Below, piece after piece: positions 1,154-41,555 of a stretch of DNA of 45,829 nucleotides. Under the pieces are notes generated by a model. The model worked only from the letters and a program-made list of their open reading frames with translations, was not told the origin of the DNA and did not search any database. Position numbers and translations under genes: made by a program. The stretch spans positions 1-45,829 of the forward strand of contig JAAZEB010000228.1 of the NCBI GenBank assembly GCA_012512505.1, written 5' to 3'. Origin of the DNA: Armatimonadota bacterium (GTDB taxonomy: Bacteria > Armatimonadota > JAAZEB01). How positions within the stretch are numbered: the stretch's first letter is position 1; the number at the start of each line of letters is the position of its first letter.

Positions 1154-4100
1154 CTACTGCAGCGGCCGTTCGCCAAAGTAAACCATGCCGGGGCACATCG
1201 GCAGCCGTGGCGTGCCCGGCAGGTAGTAAGCCGGCTCTTGCTCACTGAAGCGCACGAGGCGCGTATCGGTGATCAACAGCGGGTCGAACGCGTAGTTGAT
1301 GCCGCCCCGCCGGCTGAAGTCGCTGTCGTCCAGCTCCATCTGGGTGCCCGCCCGCTCGAACTCGGTGCGGTTGGCGCCGCGCCAGTGTGCCGTCCACAAC
1401 GTCACGTCTTCCAGGGAGGCCGCCTGCCCCTCGGAGATCCCGCCGCGGATGTGGATCTGCACGTCCAGCGGCTCGCAGTTCTTCGGATAACGCCAGCAGT
1501 CGGTCGAGGGTTCCGGGTCGCCGGCGGTGGTATCCTGGAAGAAGGTGCCCGGGATCACGAACCAGGAATAGTGTTCGGCGTAGATGAGCGCGGTCACCAT
1601 GATGTCCAGCGGCTGGATCGCCGCCGCCCCAAGGTTGTAGTCGCCCCCGGTCGTCTGCAGCGAGCCATCGGGCGAGCCCGGGTCGTACTGCTGGATGCGG
1701 ATCTGGTTGCGATGGCCGGCCCGCTCGTCCAGGGCATAGTTCTGGCCGGCGGGGATGGTCAGCCCGCCACCGGTGTACAGCTCGAAGGGGCGCGCCGGGC
1801 TTTGCAGGTGATCGGCGAAGTAGCTCCACTCGCCGGCGTTCAGCAGCGGGTAGAACGCCTGGGGCGTGGCCGAGTCGAACGGCGCCCACAGCGGGTGGTT
1901 GTAAGGCACGTTGTTCACCAGCCACTGCATCGTGGCAGGGGCACCCGCGGCCTGGTGGCGCAGGAAGAGCGCCGGCCCATAGCCCAGTTGGCCCACCCGC
2001 CGGTTGTAGTACTCCCGCACCGAGTCGTCGTTCGGCTGCACGCCGAAGTCCCAGGAGAGCAAGAAGGCGCGCTCCGGCTCGTTGTTCGCCAGACGCCAGA
2101 AGTAGGGCGGGCCGTTGTCGCCGGCGGCGACGAAGCTGGTATCGGTCTCCACCTGCACGAACTGGGTCGTGTTCAGGCAGACGTAGTCCCGCGCCAGCAG
2201 GGCGATTTGCGAGCGGGCAGGCGCGTTGGCGTTCACCGGGGGGCCTTTGACCAGGTTCCCGTCGATGTAGATCGTGCCGCGCGAAACCACGGTGAGGCGC
2301 ACGCCGCCCTGGGCGGTATCCTGAGGCAGGCAGCCGCGGATGCGCACGTTCCCCTCGGCGAAGATCACCCCGTTGAACGGGTAGCGCCAGCTATCCGGCA
2401 CCGAGCCGGGCAGGTCCACCCACTCGTCGCGGGTCCAATCCCAGGTCTTCCAGGTGCCGCTGCCGCTATCCCACCACTTGGGCAGCAGGGTGTATTCGCG
2501 GCTGTTGCCAGCAATCGCCGGCGGCGGGCCGGGGCGCAGCTCGAAGAACAACGTGCGCTGCGCCATGCGCCGGCCCAGCGGATCACGCCAGCCGGTGGAA
2601 TCGTTCCGGGTGATGCGGATCAGGCCGTGCTCGGGGTTCGTGCCGCCGTTGGACCAGTCCGGCTCCAGGGCGATGATCACGGCGGGTGGCTCGTAGACGC
2701 GGCCGGGGTATTTCCAGCCACTGTCCGGGGCCACCTGGGCATAGGGGCGCACCCAGTCGGCGCGCAGCTTCTCGGGATTGTGGTTGTACTGGACATCGCC
2801 GCTACAGCGCCGGTGCTCGCCGCTGTGGCGGGCGTTGTCGAGGTAGATTCCGGCGCCGTAGCCGTAGCGGCCGGCGGTCTGCCCCTTCCAGGGGTTCGCC
2901 GCGTCCGCGCGGGCGGCGCCGGCCTGAGTGATCACCTGATAGCGCAGCCGGCCGCTCGTCGGATCGGTGACCTCAATCTGGGGCGGATCGAGCCGCTGCA
3001 CGCTGCGGCGCGGATCGAAGTTTGCCTTCTCGGCGGGGCTCGCGGTCAGCCAGGCGTTGTCCAGGTAGCGGCCGGCAAAGCTGCCATTGCGCACCAGCGT
3101 CTCGAACTCCGGGTTCTCGCTGGCGGGCAGTGCCGCCTCCAGCGGCGCCGAGCCGGACGAGGCACCCGGGGGATAGAGACGCAGCACCATCCGGTTGAGG
3201 TTGGGGCTATCGCTATCCTGGCCGGTGCCCTCGCGGCGGATGCGGCCGGCCACTTCCACCTTTTGATGGGCCACGCGCTCCTGGCCGTTGAAGCTCTCGT
3301 TCGTCAGGCTGACGCTCACCTCCGGCTGGTTATCGTCGGTCGGCAGCGCCGAGCCGAACCACACCAGGTCGCCGTTCACCCGGATCGGGCCGCCGGTGGC
3401 CTGGGCCGCAAAGTCCGATTGGAAGCGGTCGGCATCAATGCCCACGCGGAACGGCAGGTCAATCAGGTTGGGGCTGGGCGTTTCGCCGTCGCGGATCAGC
3501 AACTGATCCACCCCCAGGTAGGTCGGCCGGCCGAGCTGGGCGCGGTCGGTGACGAAGCGCAGGTAGTTGTTGATCCCAATCGCCTTGAACGCCACCAGTT
3601 CGCGGCGGAAGCGGTAGGCGCCACTGCTGTTGAGCGCCTGTGTCGTGTCACCAAAGACGGTCGGATCAATCGGGTCGGCCCCGTTGCTGTCGATAAAGTC
3701 TTGGTACTCCTTGTCGATCTCGGCGGCGCTGCCCCGGCGTCCGACCGCCTCAATCATCACGTAGCGCGAGAGTTCGGTGGGGCCAAACCGGGTGGTGCTG
3801 GCATCATAGCTGCCGGGCACCACGTCCGGCATCACCGGCAGGCCTAGCGGATTCCCGTTGGGGCCGGGGATCGTGTTCCCGGCGGCATCGCGCACGTAGA
3901 CCGAGTTTTCGGGGTTGTAGGTCACCCGCAGCAGGAAGCGCGAGTCGCCCAGGTTGTAGCGAATGTAGCCGCCCACATCATCGCTCGGGTCGGCGGGGTT
4001 GCGCACGTCAAACGGCTGGATCCAGTAGTAGTCGGGGTCCTGGGTCAAGAAGGCGCCGGCAGCGCTGGCGGCGATGGCGGCGATGTTGTAGTAGGGGCGC

Positions 4101-35438: not shown

Positions 35439-37202
35439 ATGGCACTGACGATGGCGGCACTGGCGGCGGCGTTCCAGGCGCTGGAGCAGACGCGGCGGCG
35501 CGGCGAGATGGTGGCGGTGCTGGGGCGCCTGCTGGCGAGCGCCGACATGCAGGAGATCGCCCGCGTCGTCTACCTGTGCCAGGGCCGGCTCCGGCCGCCG
35601 TTCGAGCCGCTGGAGTTCGGGCTGCAGGCCACGCTGATGAGCCGAGCGCTGGCGGAGGCCACCGGCTGCCCCCTGGAGGAGGTGCAGGCACGCTACCAAC
35701 GGCTGGGCGACCTGGGCACCGTCGCCGGGGAACTGCTGCCGCCGGTCGGCGCCGGCCTGCGCGTGCTGGAGGTGTACGACCGCCTCTACGCGATCGCCGC
35801 CCTGTCGGGCAGCGGCGCGCAGGGCGGCAAAGTGGCGCGGCTGGCGGAGCTGCTGCGGCAGCTCTCTGCCCTGGAAGGGCGCTACACCCTGCGGATTGTG
35901 CAGGGCCAACTACGCCTGGGCGTGGGCGACGCCACAATCCTCGATGCCCTGGCGGCCTCAGCGGGGGACCCGGGCCTGCGTGCCCTCCTGGAACGCTGCT
36001 ACAACCTCGGCTCCGACCTGGGCCTGGCGGCCCAACTGCTGCGCGAGCAAGGGGCTGAGGGGCTGCGGCGCTTCAGCGTCTGCCCCGGCCGGCCGGTGCG
36101 TCCAGCGCTGGCGCAGCGCCTCACCTCTCCGGAGGAGGTACTGCGCCGCATCGGGCGCTGCCAGGTGGAGCCCAAGTACGATGGCTTCCGGCTGCAGGTT
36201 CACCGCCTCGGCGACACGGTGCGTCTTTTCTCGCGCAGCCTGGAGGATGTCTCTGGCCAGTTCCCGGAGGTGGCGCAGGCCGTGCCGCGGCAACTTCAAG
36301 CCCGGGAGGCGATCCTTGAAGGAGAGGCGGTCGGCTACCTCCCGGAGACGGGCGAGTTCCTCCCATTCCAGGTCACCAGCCAGCGGCGCCGCAAGCACAA
36401 CATCGCGGCGATGCAGGAGACGATCCCCCTGCGCCTCTTCGTGTTCGACCTGCTCTACGCCGATGGCGAGGCGTACCTGGAGTGCCCGCTCTCGGTGCGG
36501 CGCGAGGCGCTGGAGCGCTGCCTGCGGGCAACCGAGGGGGAGACGCTCTGCCTGTCGCCCGCGCTGGTCACCGCCGACGCGGCACGCTTCCAGGAATTCT
36601 TCGACGAGATGGTGGCGGAGGGCCTGGAGGGCGTGGTGGCCAAACGCCTGGACAGCCCCTACACCGCCGGCGCCCGCTCCTACAACTGGATCAAGCTCAA
36701 GCGAGGCTACCGGGCCGAGTTGGCCGATACCGTCGATTGCGTGCTCGTCGGCTACCTGCTAGGCCGCGGCCAGCGGGCACGCTTTGGGATCGGCTCGCTG
36801 CTGGGGGCCGTCTACAACCCGGAGCGCGACCGCTTCGAGACGGTGGCGAAGATCGGCTCCGGGCTGTCGGACGAGGGGTGGCGCCGGATGAAGGAGGCGC
36901 TCGATGCCGTTGCCGTGCCGCACCGGCCGGCGCGGGTGGAGTCGGTGCTAGTGCCGGACGTGTGGTGCGAGCCGCGCTACGTGGTGGCCGTGCAGGCGGA
37001 TGAGATCACCCGCAGCCCGCAGCACACGGCCGGCCGTGACGGGAGCGCCACCGGCTACGCCCTGCGCTTCCCGCGTGTCGTCGGCTGGATTCGTGAAGAC
37101 AAGCGTCCCGAGGACGCCACCACCGTGGGGGAGATCCTGGACCTTTTCCGCCTGCGGCGCCACGAGACGACGCGCCCGGAGCCGCCGTTACCCGTCGAGT
37201 AG
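35439..37202 (+). CDS. ATP-dependent DNA ligase, archaeal/eukaryal type
   Basis: 587 aa. An N-terminal DNA_ligase_A_N domain (1-200) binds DNA, followed by the adenylation domain with motif I EPKYDGFRLQ (AMP-accepting Lys246), RSLEDVSGQFPE (motif III region), EAILEGEAVGY (motif IIIa), GLEGVVAKRL (motif IV) and NWIKLKRGY (motif V), then the OB-fold. This is the full LigI-like layout of archaea rather than short bacterial LigC/LigD enzymes. The bacterial NAD-dependent LigA would be expected elsewhere in the genome. No Ku or other repair gene is adjacent. ATG 35439 has only a weak G-rich ribosome site. Its last 15 bp overlap the convergent V4R gene. Confidence 0.92.
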   Translation: MALTMAALAAAFQALEQTRRRGEMVAVLGRLLASADMQEIARVVYLCQGRLRPPFEPLEFGLQATLMSRALAEATGCPLEEVQARYQRLGDLGTVAGELLPPVGAGLRVLEVYDRLYAIAALSGSGAQGGKVARLAELLRQLSALEGRYTLRIVQGQLRLGVGDATILDALAASAGDPGLRALLERCYNLGSDLGLAAQLLREQGAEGLRRFSVCPGRPVRPALAQRLTSPEEVLRRIGRCQVEPKYDGFRLQVHRLGDTVRLFSRSLEDVSGQFPEVAQAVPRQLQAREAILEGEAVGYLPETGEFLPFQVTSQRRRKHNIAAMQETIPLRLFVFDLLYADGEAYLECPLSVRREALERCLRATEGETLCLSPALVTADAARFQEFFDEMVAEGLEGVVAKRLDSPYTAGARSYNWIKLKRGYRAELADTVDCVLVGYLLGRGQRARFGIGSLLGAVYNPERDRFETVAKIGSGLSDEGWRRMKEALDAVAVPHRPARVESVLVPDVWCEPRYVVAVQADEITRSPQHTAGRDGSATGYALRFPRVVGWIREDKRPEDATTVGEILDLFRLRRHETTRPEPPLPVE

Positions 37203-37904
37203 GCGCCGTAGGTTGGCGATCGGGCCGGGGGCCACCGGGGTGACCACGAAGCGGCACTCCGCCGCTCCTTGCGCCCGGCAGGCGATCTCCTCGCAGTTCA
37301 TCGGCCGGCCGACCAGCGTGGTCACGGTCTGCGCCAGGAAGCCGCGCGCGAAGTGGTCCTGGGGGTATTCTGCCTCTTCCTGGCTCTCGAACAGGTCGTG
37401 GCCGACAAAGAGGAGCTCGCCGTGCTCCTCGTCGACGCCCGCCAGTTCGAGGTTGCCCAGGCCCTGCAGGCGGAACATGTCGAGGCGGTTGGCCAGGTCT
37501 CCCTCGAAGTTGTCGGCGTACTTGCGGCCGATTGCCACGCGGGCCGCGTCGGGGAGGTGGAACGCCGTCTCCAGCTCGCGGAAGATCTGGCAGACGAAGC
37601 GGCTGGAGACCGCCGTCTCCAGGTAGGGGCGCAGCGGCTCGAGGCCGAAGCCGCGCATCGCCAGGCGCAGGAAGGTCATCGAGCGCACGGCCAGTTCGGC
37701 GGCAAGCGCGGTGGGGAACGCCGGGAGCAGCTCAGCCAGCGCCTGCTCGTGCATCGCGACCACCTCTTCCGGCCCCACCTGTCGGCGCGCGAACTCGCCG
37801 CTCAAGGCGCGCACCGCCGGGAGTGCCCGGTCGTCCTCTCGCCGCAGGTAATCACCCAGAAGCGCCAGGTAGCGGATCCCCAGCGCGTGCTCGTCTTTCT
37901 CCAT
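37188..37904 (-). CDS. RsbU_N-like plus V4R-domain sensor protein
   Basis: 238 aa from ATG 37904. Residues about 5-115 (LGIRYLALLGDYLRREDDRA to SMTFLRLAMRGFG) resemble the N-terminal domain of RsbU-type phosphatases, which docks an RsbT-like kinase. No PP2C phosphatase domain follows. The C-terminal half matches V4R/4-vinyl-reductase domains, including FARGFLAQTVTTLVGRPMNC and CRAQGAAECRFVV with the Cys pair that in relatives can bind small ligands or metal. A GTG at 37970 overlaps the RsbW-like stop (GTGA) and would add 22 residues. It is the last gene of the KaiC operon and probably its sensory input. Confidence 0.7.
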   Translation of the reverse strand: MEKDEHALGIRYLALLGDYLRREDDRALPAVRALSGEFARRQVGPEEVVAMHEQALAELLPAFPTALAAELAVRSMTFLRLAMRGFGLEPLRPYLETAVSSRFVCQIFRELETAFHLPDAARVAIGRKYADNFEGDLANRLDMFRLQGLGNLELAGVDEEHGELLFVGHDLFESQEEAEYPQDHFARGFLAQTVTTLVGRPMNCEEIACRAQGAAECRFVVTPVAPGPIANLRRLLDG

Positions 37905-37966
37905 GGCAACCGCGATCCGGGATTGGCGAGGGGGAAGGCCGCGCGATCGCCTACCGCCCGTTGCGT

Positions 37967-38554
37967 TCACCCGAGGTACTTGATCAACGTCAGCTCATTG
38001 CCTTCGCCGGGGTGGTAGGTGTGGCGCACCTCATCCATGAAGCTGCGGATGATGTAGCTGCCGATGCCGCGGGCTCGCCCGCTGCCAACGACCTCGGCCA
38101 GGTCCAGGCTCTCCAGTTCTTCCACCGAGAAGCGCGGCCCGCGGTCGAAGATGCGCAGCTCGATGCGGTCGCCGTAGATGGAGACGCGCAAAGTGATCGC
38201 CTCGGCTCCGCGGTCGCCATGGTGCGCCACGATCACCCGCTCCCTTAGCGACGCGTTGCCGTAGGCGTGCTCAATGATGTTGGCGCACGCCTCATCCACG
38301 GCGATCTCAATCTCGCCTACCCGGTGGTCAGGGAAGCCCATCTTGCGGGCAATCGCCGTCACGAAGTCACGCACGAGCTGCAGGTAGTCGGTCTCGCCCG
38401 GCACGACGAGCGCCAGGTCACGCCGTCCCGGCGTGCGTCGGACGCAGCGCGCCGCCGTGCAGGCTCCCCCCGGGCGTTCCGCCGCCGGCGGCTGGCCGTT
38501 GCTGTCGCCGTGGTTGTCGCTCGTCATCATGCGGTTCTCAGCGTCTCTGTTCAT
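37967..38554 (-). CDS. RsbW/SpoIIAB-like serine kinase (anti-sigma type)
   Basis: 195 aa with a non-conserved basic N-terminus of about 45 residues. The HATPase_c domain has N-box EIAVDEACANIIEHAY, G1-like FDRGP and G2-like GRARGIGSYIIRSF, the RsbW pattern rather than histidine-kinase spacing. It would phosphorylate the adjacent STAS protein and sequester a sigma factor or other target. No sigma factor is encoded nearby. ATG 38554 overlaps the STAS gene by 17 bp; ATGs at 38530 and 38527 are alternatives. Confidence 0.87.
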   Translation of the reverse strand: MNRDAENRMMTSDNHGDSNGQPPAAERPGGACTAARCVRRTPGRRDLALVVPGETDYLQLVRDFVTAIARKMGFPDHRVGEIEIAVDEACANIIEHAYGNASLRERVIVAHHGDRGAEAITLRVSIYGDRIELRIFDRGPRFSVEELESLDLAEVVGSGRARGIGSYIIRSFMDEVRHTYHPGEGNELTLIKYLG

Positions 38555-38915
38555 CGGCGGTGGCCAGGCACTGCAGCGCCTCCTGCTCAGAGCGGAAGGC
38601 GCGGATCAGTTTGGAGATGCCCAGCAAGTTGAGGATGTTGGCAATCTTCTCCGGCACGCGGGCGACCACCAGGTCGCCCGCATTCTGGCGCACCTGGCGG
38701 AAAAGCTGCAGCATCAACCCCAGGGCGGTGCTGCAGATGTAGGTCACTTCGTGCAGGTCCAGGAGTAGGCGGTAGTGGCCCTGATTGACCAGCGCCAGCA
38801 TCTCCTCCTCAAAGCGAGGATAAGAGTGCGCATCAATGTAGCCAGCCAGGCGCACGATCTGAACGGAACGACCGTCCGTTTCGGTTGGTTCGGTGGCGAT
38901 CCGTAGCTCTTTCAT
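38538..38915 (-). CDS. STAS-domain anti-sigma factor antagonist (RsbV-like)
   Basis: 125 aa. The STAS core has VRLAGYIDAHSYPRFEEEM and LLLDLHEVTYICSTALGLML, in which Ser62 sits where RsbV/SpoIIAA are phosphorylated. The expected DSSG-like sequence is CSTALG, with Ala replacing the first Gly. It would bind the RsbW-like kinase in its unphosphorylated form and release that kinase's target. The gene starts 12 nt after the RecA-like gene and overlaps the next gene. Confidence 0.88.
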   Translation of the reverse strand: MKELRIATEPTETDGRSVQIVRLAGYIDAHSYPRFEEEMLALVNQGHYRLLLDLHEVTYICSTALGLMLQLFRQVRQNAGDLVVARVPEKIANILNLLGISKLIRAFRSEQEALQCLATADEQRR

Positions 38916-38927
38916 CAGCAGTGGGTC

Positions 38928-39671
38928 CTATCGCCGGTAGTAGTCACGGTCCACCAGCAGCCCATGCTCCCGGTGGATGCGGAAAGGAAACGGGCGGGGG
39001 TCGAAGACTCCTCCACGCACCTTCAGCACCTGCAAGTTCCGCCGCGGCATCCCTCCCCGGTCCTCCGCGTAAAAGAGCCGCAGCAACACGTCGTAAGCAT
39101 TCGAGACGCAGTGGGCGTCTCGCGCATCCATTGCCTGCGCCAGGTAGAGATCCATCAAGACGACATCCGGCCTCTTGAGCAGCCGGTTCTTCTCATAGAT
39201 CAGGCGGACCAGGGCGCGCGGGGACAGGTAAGCCGCCAGCGAGGTCACCGAATCGAGCACCACGCGGGTCGGCCGCGGCATGCCGGCGAGCACCTCCGTC
39301 ACCAGGTAGAGCAGCTCCTCGGGATCGGCGCGGTCGGAGACCACGAAGCGCTCGCTGCCCCCCTCGGAGAAGGCGTCGATCAGAACGAGTTGGCCGGCGC
39401 GCTCGTAGGCGCCCAAGGAGAAGCCGAACTGCTGCTGGCTGGCGCGCACGCGCTCGGGAGTGTCGTCGCAAGCGATGAAGAGGACCGACTCGCCGCGCCG
39501 CAGGCCCTGCAGGGCAAACTGCGCGGCGAGGATTGTCTTGCCGATGCCCGCGTCTCCCTGCACCTGCCACGCCGTGCCGAACGGCAGCGAGCCGGCGCAG
39601 ATCGCGTCCGTGGGATCGAAGCGCACCTGGCGGGGCGCCCCGTCGGCCAGGCCCGGGTCGTGCTCAGGCAT
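38928..39671 (-). CDS. Single-domain KaiC/RecA-like ATPase
   Basis: 247 aa. Walker A GDAGIGKT (39-46), the strand ESVLFIACDDTPERVRASQQ in place of the KaiC TFEE segment, and Walker B TRVVLDSVTSLA. This is one RecA-fold domain, related to KaiC-like RadA/RecA-superfamily proteins in archaea and bacteria. The N-terminal 30 residues lack the GxxxLDxxxxGG motif of KaiC CI, so it is a divergent partner. ATG 39671 overlaps the double-KaiC stop by 8 bp, with GGAG 7 nt upstream. It may form hetero-oligomers with the upstream ATPase; that is inference. Confidence 0.75.
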   Translation of the reverse strand: MPEHDPGLADGAPRQVRFDPTDAICAGSLPFGTAWQVQGDAGIGKTILAAQFALQGLRRGESVLFIACDDTPERVRASQQQFGFSLGAYERAGQLVLIDAFSEGGSERFVVSDRADPEELLYLVTEVLAGMPRPTRVVLDSVTSLAAYLSPRALVRLIYEKNRLLKRPDVVLMDLYLAQAMDARDAHCVSNAYDVLLRLFYAEDRGGMPRRNLQVLKVRGGVFDPRPFPFRIHREHGLLVDRDYYRR

Positions 39672-41067
39672 CTTCCTGCTCCGCTCCCGCCGTCGGCCGG
39701 TAGAAGACCTGGATGCCCGCCGGGGTGATCCGCATGCGCCGCTCGCCGAGGACGTGGTTGACCCCGCGCGCCTTAAGGACCTCGATGCCACGCCGGCGCC
39801 GGGTGCCTTCCCGGCGGCTCCGCAGAAGCACCACCGCGTCCGCCAGCGGCTCCGCGACGCCGTAGGCGCTGCTCTGCCCGCTGCCGCCGGGCAGCTCGCT
39901 GATGAAGAGCGCCGTCGCCCCCTGGCCCCGGGTCAGGCGCACCAACTGATCGACGCGTTCCCGGAGCAGGTGGGGCGCGTGGCTCACTTCGTGGAGCATT
40001 GCCGAGAGAGAGTCGAACACCACTCGCCGGATGCCGCCGCGCCGCAGATGCTCTTGGATGCGCCAGAGGTGCTCTGCCAGGCAGGTGGTGGCAAAGGGCG
40101 CCTCCAGCACGTCCAGCTTCCCCTCCGCCCGCGGCCGGGCCAGGTCCCACCCGAACGAAGCGGCCGTGCGCTCCACCGACGCGGGGGTCTCGTGCGACAG
40201 GCAAAGAAGCCCCGGCTCGCCGCGCTGGATTCCTTCTAGCAGGAACTGCACGCCCAGGATGGTCTTCCCGGTGCCGCTCTCGCCGCCCAGCAGGAGGCTG
40301 GCGCCACGGCGCAGTCCGCCGTCCAGCAGGTGGTCCAGGCCCGCCACCCCGGTGGAGACCAGCGGTGCCTCCGCGTCCGGGGCCGGGGCGTCCGGCACCT
40401 GCGGCGGCGGGAAGACCGCGATCCCCTCCGGGCCGAAACGGAATGGGTGGCGGCCAGCGACATGCTCTTGGCCGCGCGTCTTCAACACTTCGAGGTAGCG
40501 GCGGCCGGCCACGCGGCCAACCTGGATCACGGTATCGGCGACGTAGCCCGCGAACGGGAGCGACGCCTCCCCTTGCGGGCCAACCTCCCGGGTGGCCACT
40601 ACCGTCAGGCCGCGTTGCTTCAGGGCGTTCAGCAGGCCCACCACCAGCAGCCGCTGCTCGTTGGGATCGCGGTCGAGGGCCGCGAGGTGACTGAGGCTAT
40701 CGATCAGGAGGCGCCGCGCCCCGGTCTGGCGGATCCAGTCGTCCACCACGCTGTCGGAGCCGTGAAGCTGATCGCGCAACACCTGGGGCGAGGTGCAGAC
40801 GACGCGCAGTTTGTCGGCGGCCTCCAGGGCAGGGAGGTCCCAGCCGAACTGAGCGGCCTCTCGGTAGAGCTGAGCGGGGAGCTGCTCGAAGGTGATGATC
40901 AGGCCAGCCTCGTCGTGACGGGCGGCGCCGGCATGGATGAACTGCACGCCGAGGGTGGTTTTCCCAGTGCCGGGGGCGCCCTCGAGCAGAACAGCCTGCC
41001 CGCGCAGGAAGCCCCCCGTCAGGATAAGATCGAGGCCCTCGATGCCGGTTGGGATCCTGTCCTGCAT
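39664..41067 (-). CDS. Double-domain KaiC-like ATPase
   Basis: 467 aa from ATG 41067 (GGTGA 7 nt upstream). Two RecA/KaiC domains each begin with a G(I/V)xGLDxLLxGG-type motif: IPTGIEGLDLILTGGF and VSTGVAGLDHLLDGGL. Walker A sequences are GAPGTGKT (30-37) and GESGTGKT (262-269). Domain 1 keeps one Glu of the KaiC catalytic pair (ITFEQ, Glu61). The Ser-Thr phosphosites of cyanobacterial KaiC CII are not evident. KaiA/KaiB are absent nearby, so it is not a cyanobacterial clock. It heads a five-gene operon with partner-switching proteins and probably supplies a nucleotide-dependent signal. Confidence 0.85.
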   Translation of the reverse strand: MQDRIPTGIEGLDLILTGGFLRGQAVLLEGAPGTGKTTLGVQFIHAGAARHDEAGLIITFEQLPAQLYREAAQFGWDLPALEAADKLRVVCTSPQVLRDQLHGSDSVVDDWIRQTGARRLLIDSLSHLAALDRDPNEQRLLVVGLLNALKQRGLTVVATREVGPQGEASLPFAGYVADTVIQVGRVAGRRYLEVLKTRGQEHVAGRHPFRFGPEGIAVFPPPQVPDAPAPDAEAPLVSTGVAGLDHLLDGGLRRGASLLLGGESGTGKTILGVQFLLEGIQRGEPGLLCLSHETPASVERTAASFGWDLARPRAEGKLDVLEAPFATTCLAEHLWRIQEHLRRGGIRRVVFDSLSAMLHEVSHAPHLLRERVDQLVRLTRGQGATALFISELPGGSGQSSAYGVAEPLADAVVLLRSRREGTRRRRGIEVLKARGVNHVLGERRMRITPAGIQVFYRPTAGAEQEDA

Positions 41068-41096
41068 GCCGGTGTCACCCCCCAATGCCTACGGTG

Positions 41097-41125
41097 ATTA
41101 TACTGCCGGGCGCGCATTCGGTCAA
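41097..41125 (-). promoter_or_regulatory. Near-consensus promoter of the KaiC operon
   Basis: TTGACC at 41125-41120, a 17-bp spacer and TATAAT at 41102-41097: 11 of 12 bases match sigma70 consensus, one of the two best promoters in the window. The expected start is about 23 nt before the ATG. Confidence 0.85.
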
Positions 41126-41171: not shown

Positions 41172-41262
41172 GGTCGGAGCGCCAGCGTCCCGCCGGCCGC
41201 CCTAGGAGACGCACTCCCACCGACAGGTCGGATCGCCGGCGTCCCGCCGGCCGCCGTAGGAG
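41172..41262. repeat. Family B repeat, two 37-bp copies
   Basis: Copies at 41172-41208 and 41226-41262 match at 34 of 37 positions, with a 54-bp period. The core is GCGTCCCGCCGGCCGCC; in copy 2 CCGGCG-TCC-CGCCGG forms a 6-bp hairpin. Both copies point the same way. Confidence 0.75.
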
Positions 41263-41294
41263 TCCCCCTTGCCCGGCGCCGTGGCCGCCCGACA

Positions 41295-41410
41295 GAAGCC
41301 CGATTGCTCGGGCACTCCGGCCAGTTGCCCGGGAGAGTAGCGGAGCGCCGCAGCCATGCGGCTTCCCAGACCGTTGAAGCCCGATGGCTCGGGCACTCCG
41401 GCTAGTTGCC
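41295..41410. repeat. Family A palindromic repeat, inverted relative to 20.1 kb
   Basis: GAAGCCCGATTGCTCGGGCA (from 41295) and GAAGCCCGATGGCTCGGGCA (from 41376) each continue into CTCCGG(C/T)-AGTTGCC, 81 bp apart. Between them lies CGGAGCGCCGCAGCCATGCG (41341-41360). On the minus strand this is the unit found twice at 20127-20278. Confidence 0.8.
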
Positions 41411-41482
41411 TGGAAGGGTAACTCCCCCATCGGCGCCTCCGGTGCCGACAGGCCGATAGCCGTTCATGGTCTCCGGGCGGTG

Positions 41483-41555
41483 GTAGGGGCGAAGCATTTG
41501 CGGTTCAGGCGTACTGCGCCGCAATCGGTTGAACCCGCCAATGCTTCGCCCCTAC
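41483..41555. repeat. Perfect terminal inverted repeat element, 73 bp
   Basis: GTAGGGGCGAAGCATT (41483-41498) and AATGCTTCGCCCCTAC (41540-41555) are a perfect 16-bp inverted repeat; GGTTCA/TGAACC inside extends the stem. Closely similar GTAGGGGCGAAGCATTTG strings are, from memory, widespread intergenic repeats in several phyla. One copy here. Confidence 0.75.

Follow-up and report, generated by a model that had tools for sequence, protein, structure and literature searches.

A conserved Armatimonadota operon joins KaiC-like ATPases and a V4R protein to a partner-switching pair

KaiC-family ATPases are common outside circadian clocks, and their outputs there are an open question. Makarova, Galperin and Koonin (2017, as cited in PMC5847659) reportedly described such ATPases as signal-transduction hubs in archaea. 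Here we analyse a 45,829-nt stretch of DNA (the window; contig C132) from an Armatimonadota metagenome-assembled genome (G000; 5.66 Mb, 97% complete) and show that it carries a conserved five-gene operon, under purifying selection and behind one strong promoter, that encodes two KaiC-like ATPases (KaiC1 and KaiC2), a STAS antagonist, an RsbW-like serine kinase and a protein in which an RsbU_N domain precedes a V4R domain. Related loci reveal that the shared core is KaiC1, KaiC2 and V4R, and they suggest that partner switching is a plug-in output of this core that can be exchanged. A non-clock KaiC is here tied by conserved gene order to an output that is biochemically well understood, RsbW/STAS.

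Each of the closest described systems resembles part of this locus. The RsbV–RsbW and SpoIIAA–SpoIIAB pairs of Bacillus share with it a STAS protein with an aligned phosphoserine, an RsbW-type ATPase with the N, G1 and G2 motifs, and adjacency of the two genes, but the operon here encodes neither a sigma factor nor a PP2C phosphatase, and in their stead has a pair of KaiC ATPases along with a V4R protein. RsbA-type anti-sigma proteins (MEDS plus HATPase_c_2) likewise couple a KaiC-family domain to an RsbW-type kinase; in the window, however, the KaiC-like part is separate, has an intact Walker A motif and is joined by a double-domain KaiC, a STAS protein and V4R. As in the archaeal KaiC hubs, non-clock KaiC ATPases are wired to varied sensor or output domains, although this cassette is bacterial and combines a partner-switching output with V4R. 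In RsbU and other RsbU_N proteins, a helical linker connects RsbU_N to a C-terminal domain, which here is V4R and not the PP2C (SpoIIE) phosphatase domain, as judged by Pfam and Foldseek. The phenol sensors PoxR, MopR and DmpR share the predicted V4R fold and the E-C-C part of a metal site: a HMMER alignment places E228, C231 and C239 on MopR E178, C181 and C189, which together with C155 are presumably the zinc ligands of MopR. The first of these, C155, is replaced by D205, and V4R is C-terminal here and not on a sigma-54 activator. Coupling of KaiC with partner switching was not found in the literature searched (a limited paper collection), in keeping with the claim of an earlier sequence-only reading of the window that a single signalling cassette of this kind is not a characterised system.

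The five open reading frames (ORFs) lie on the minus strand from 41067 to 37188, in the order kaiC1–kaiC2–STAS–rsbW-like–RsbU_N+V4R according to ORF calls and Pfam domains, with computed junctions of −8, +12, −17 and −4 nt:

41097..41125, minus strand: sigma-70-type promoter upstream of kaiC1, TTGACC-N17-TATAAT, 11/12 consensus, identified from the sequence
39664..41067, minus strand: kaiC1, double-domain KaiC-like ATPase, 467 aa (PF06745 twice, E 5e-96; alignment to KaiC structures)
38928..39671, minus strand: kaiC2, divergent KaiC-like ATPase with a single domain, 247 aa, most likely start ATG 39671 (PF06745, 1e-30)
38538..38915, minus strand: STAS antagonist of the RsbV/SpoIIAA type, 125 aa (Pfam STAS, 6e-17; NCBIfam ant_ant_sig)
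37967..38554, minus strand: RsbW-like serine kinase/anti-sigma-type ATPase, 195 aa (HATPase_c_2, PF13581, 4e-25)
37188..37970, minus strand: RsbU_N, helical linker and V4R, 260 aa (RsbU_N PF08673, 4.7e-11; V4R PF02830, 1e-12)

All ORFs, domains and junction lengths, and the single 11/12-consensus promoter in front of them, agree with the sequence-only reading. With one mismatch allowed, the window holds a single match to the pattern TTGAC-N18-TATAAT, where 0.01 would be expected, and the promoter recurs upstream of kaiC1 in three relatives, as TTGACC with a 17-nt spacer in G001 and G002 and as TTGACG with an 18-nt spacer in G032, each with TATAAT. The starts of kaiC1 and kaiC2 were revised; the most likely kaiC1 start is ATG 41067, with an in-frame TTG at 41085 also possible.

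In these three relatives, all Armatimonadota, the five genes are present in the order and orientation of the window; that they are not scattered bears out the expectation of a co-inherited unit. Protein identity to the window is 63–73% in G001 and G002, falling in G032 to about 49% for KaiC1, 51% for KaiC2, 44% for STAS, 36% for RsbW and 43% for V4R. The ligase and SLBB neighbours are retained in G001 and gone in G032; because G032 keeps the gene order despite changed flanks, it is the cassette itself that is conserved and not merely the region. For every cassette gene, dN is well below dS (for example, 0.15 versus 1.66 for STAS and 0.21 versus 1.08 for KaiC2). KaiC2 is found at E<1e-100 in 4 of 291 Armatimonadota genomes, and full-length RsbU_N+V4R, at the same threshold, in the identical four. 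Were the two distributions independent, the chance of this coincidence would be 1 in C(291,4), or about 3e-9, although three of the four genomes share a family, so the lineages are not independent.

The same core occurs outside the cassette. GTDB genomes were scanned with a V4R alignment; the genome-wide V4R scan relied on two peptide patterns, and the distribution beyond the two phyla described here is a lower bound. In another Armatimonadota genome, G226 (locus L030), a HAMP+V4R protein adjoins two KaiC genes. In 'bacterium Yes71-08' (L031), which belongs to a second phylum, a Rossmann-like+V4R protein is directly preceded by a gene whose 694-aa product contains three KaiC domains and is a KaiC1–KaiC2 fusion, its KaiC2 part being 41% identical to KaiC2 of the window. 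Two of 19 genomes searched from this phylum, G303 and G304, show the arrangement KaiC2, a 120-aa orphan, KaiC1 and a V4R+PAS protein. Neither STAS nor RsbW stands beside the core in L031, G303 or G304, whereas in the four cassettes STAS–RsbW is inserted between kaiC2 and V4R, and the N terminus of the V4R protein is RsbU_N. KaiC1+KaiC2+V4R is therefore the shared core, since the second phylum has the three together without STAS or RsbW, and once with KaiC1 and KaiC2 fused. This co-occurrence is new relative to the sequence-only reading, and it shows that the five genes are not an irreducible unit. The comparison of the KaiC–V4R core with and without an RsbW/STAS output is a natural one, and offers a concrete reconstitution system for non-clock KaiC signalling.

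A protein of about 120 aa accompanies KaiC–V4R loci in both phyla (L030:1174-1533; L031:2852-3199 and 3206-3577; L086:5885-6247; L087:10192-10563). The L030 and L031 copies have no Pfam match, and an AlphaFold model (pLDDT 85, mostly helical) matched no PDB fold at E<=0.001. The idea that the second-phylum orphan substitutes for RsbU_N/V4R was rejected on this negative fold search and for want of profile similarity.

By alignment, the STAS and RsbW-like proteins retain the phosphoserine and kinase motifs of RsbV and RsbW. STAS Ser62, invariant in the four cassettes, aligns with the phosphorylated serine of SpoIIAA (1th8_B/1tid_B alignment; Ala in 1tid/1til). The RsbW-like protein keeps the N-box (E88..N92), G1 (D137) and G2 (G163). 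Its conserved part begins at about residue 44, and translation may instead start at an in-frame ATG downstream of 38554. In a single-protein search of solved structures, its sole PDB match at E<=0.001 was Bacillus RsbW (6m36_A), with no match to RsbT at that threshold; against NF041045 it scored 39 bits, under the cut-off of 210.

KaiC1 aligns over its full length with KaiC structures and has both Walker A motifs intact. Its paired catalytic glutamates are reduced to E61-Q62 and H292-E293, leaving one per pair. At S431/T432 of KaiC, which we take to be the CII phosphosites, it has E406/P407, and its relatives have E-T, E-S and E-S. KaiC1 scores under the cut-offs of circ_KaiC and PRK09302. No KaiB was detected in G000, G001 or G032; three tandem KaiB-like matches lie in G002 (C151:8403-9471), away from the cassette. 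KaiC2 has an intact Walker A motif (GDAGIGKT) and D140-S141 after the Walker B strand, and its nearest solved relatives are KaiC and PH0284. Among the plasmid matches to KaiC2 that were listed, all were generic KaiC-like proteins of about 29–32% identity. A phage-defence role was dropped as a candidate, the defence-system library having given weak P-loop matches only. MEDS has been classified as an inactivated KaiC-like domain (PMC5847659), and in G006, another Armatimonadota genome (C11; L089:1495-2448), MEDS and HATPase_c_2 occur in one RsbA-like chain. This chain sets a precedent, though it is no proof, for direct regulation of an RsbW-type kinase by a domain of the KaiC family.

The V4R protein may begin at GTG 37970 or ATG 37904, with homology to its relatives starting near residue 19–23. 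An AlphaFold model (pLDDT 73) shows a helical N-terminal bundle, a low-confidence helical linker and an alpha/beta V4R domain. Residues ~30–110 match RsbU structures (2j70/1w53). In RsbU, E24, Y28, I74 and I78 are implicated in RsbT binding (PMC12143880); the aligned residues here are D47, P51, R102 and R106, so that only E24 is conservatively kept. With three of the four contacts changed, docking of RsbT, which the sequence-only reading had ascribed to this domain, is unlikely, and RsbU_N is, on this alignment, better read as a dimerization domain. A stressosome reading built on RsbT was weakened by the same loss of contacts and by a kinase that is nearer RsbW. The V4R model matches the PoxR, MopR and DmpR domains (Foldseek, E of about 1e-5) and also MJ1460. 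The putative metal ligands D205, E228, C231 and C239, together with C226, are invariant in six proteins, and the domain likely binds metal, as predicted from these residues. RsbU_N, HAMP and PAS have been proposed as interchangeable dimeric input domains before different effectors (PMC12143880), an idea that fits the V4R proteins seen here, in which the one V4R domain is preceded by either RsbU_N or HAMP. Across loci the N-terminal partner of V4R varies between RsbU_N, HAMP and Rossmann-like, and V4R proteins are thereby added to this exchangeable toolkit. Searches of viral contigs, run with the V4R protein and with its core, turned up no relatives.

Partner-switching components abound elsewhere in the genome, in which HATPase_c_2 scores above its cut-off more than 20 times and about 16 SpoIIE-type phosphatases are encoded, all of the latter outside the operon. 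As these phosphatases could dephosphorylate the STAS protein in trans, the local absence of a phosphatase means little, and the proposal that the ATPases replace the usual phosphatase input is weakened. An ORF and Pfam survey of the window found no sigma factor gene within or beside the operon. The reported absence of a sigma factor thus applies to the operon but not to the genome, in which a single sigma factor exceeds the SigB/F/G cut-off; its gene is on contig C122 and has STAS and RsbW-like genes of its own next to it. Because that sigma factor has its own pair, the cassette probably has another target; there is no significant BLAST similarity between the C122 RsbW-like protein and cassette RsbW, and a role for the latter as the cognate anti-sigma factor at C122 was rejected as unlikely. 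The C122 RsbW-like protein (L091:2516-2935) has the N-box EACTS, in which the usual Asn is absent, and may be kinase-defective. The same genome also encodes single-chain STAS+HATPase_c_2 and receiver+HATPase_c_2 fusions (L063:1111-1881, L064:1033-1869 and L071:125-1120).

We tentatively favour a reading, built on domain content and conserved motifs, in which the operon would encode a signalling cassette of the cytoplasm whose input and processing core is built on KaiC and whose output is a partner switch. KaiC1 and KaiC2 would form ATP-dependent hexamer-like rings that, with a dimeric V4R protein, read a signal, which may be the ATP/ADP state, a V4R ligand or a metal or redox state. The resulting conformation would gate the RsbW-like kinase between being free to hold its target, which would be unlikely to be the C122 SigB/F-type sigma factor, and being captured by STAS unphosphorylated at Ser62; STAS could then be reset in trans by one of the SpoIIE-type phosphatases. 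A bolder form of this proposal, which we consider unlikely, is that KaiC1+KaiC2+V4R constitutes a signal-processing core of bacteria, so far without a name, to which various outputs can be attached, and that here ATP-driven conformations of the KaiC ring directly set the state of the RsbW-type kinase and replace the phosphatase input. Several points weigh against the cassette as we read it. The single glutamate per pair and the missing KaiC phosphosite leave the ATPase and kinase competence of KaiC1 uncertain; KaiC2 has a weak, near full-length match to Pfam MEDS, under the cut-off, and its similarity to the G006 MEDS domain was not significant when the two were compared directly by profile; a phenol-like ligand of the modelled V4R fold is only putative; and the complete cassettes known number four, three of them from one family. 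Relative to the sequence-only reading, what stands is a single co-inherited cassette with one promoter, and what is weakened or unsupported is RsbT docking, phosphatase replacement and a unit that always comprises five genes.

Other arrangements could give the same gene order. Two independent modules, a KaiC1–KaiC2–V4R sensor and an ordinary STAS/RsbW pair, might be co-regulated from one promoter with no contact between them; the lone KaiC–V4R core of the second phylum speaks for this, as does a genome so full of STAS and HATPase_c_2 modules, some of them single-chain, that chance capture of one is possible. We doubt it all the same: the pair is lodged within the core, with kaiC2 on one side and V4R on the other, and keeps this place in each of the four genomes, even at 36–51% identity, and V4R bears RsbU_N, a domain of partner-switching systems, next to RsbW but a Rossmann-like or HAMP domain where STAS/RsbW neighbours are missing, so that the N terminus of V4R and the output change together. 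Alternatively, the V4R protein, dimerized through RsbU_N, might be the direct regulator and bind the RsbW-like ATPase much as RsbU_N binds RsbT, with the KaiC ATPases only remodelling or chaperoning the complex. Pfam and structure matches mark RsbU_N as a genuine RsbU-type domain, its known partner is a small HATPase related to RsbW, RsbT (PMC12143880), and among the V4R proteins examined it occurs only in those that neighbour a HATPase_c_2 gene; yet the RsbT-interface residues Y28, I74 and I78 are P51, R102 and R106 here, and RsbW is the nearest relative of the cassette kinase, whose matches among solved structures at E<=0.001 do not include RsbT, which makes this account rather improbable. 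A timing or oscillating clock of the KaiC type driving partner switching is largely refuted and very improbable: KaiC1 is indeed a full-length double-domain KaiC homologue, but as it lacks the KaiC phosphosites and its own genome has no detectable KaiB (nor do G001 and G032, so that KaiB is absent from three of the four cassette genomes), the system is not a clock, and the sub-threshold circ_KaiC and PRK09302 scores point the same way.

Downstream, the operon meets a convergent ATP-dependent DNA ligase gene, whose last 15 bp (37188-37202) are shared with the V4R gene. Further upstream, a palindromic repeat, GTAGGGGCGAAGCATT...AATGCTTCGCCCCTAC, at 41483-41555 of the window is matched about 100 times across the genome (51 forward and 52 reverse, against 0 in a reversed control). 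Most matches form inverted pairs with a spacing of about 57–58 bp, which suggests a family of the REP or MITE type. Two pairs of direct repeats (41172-41269 and 41295-41420), 44–45 nt in length and 86–89% identical, lie between a galactokinase-like gene and the promoter of the cassette.

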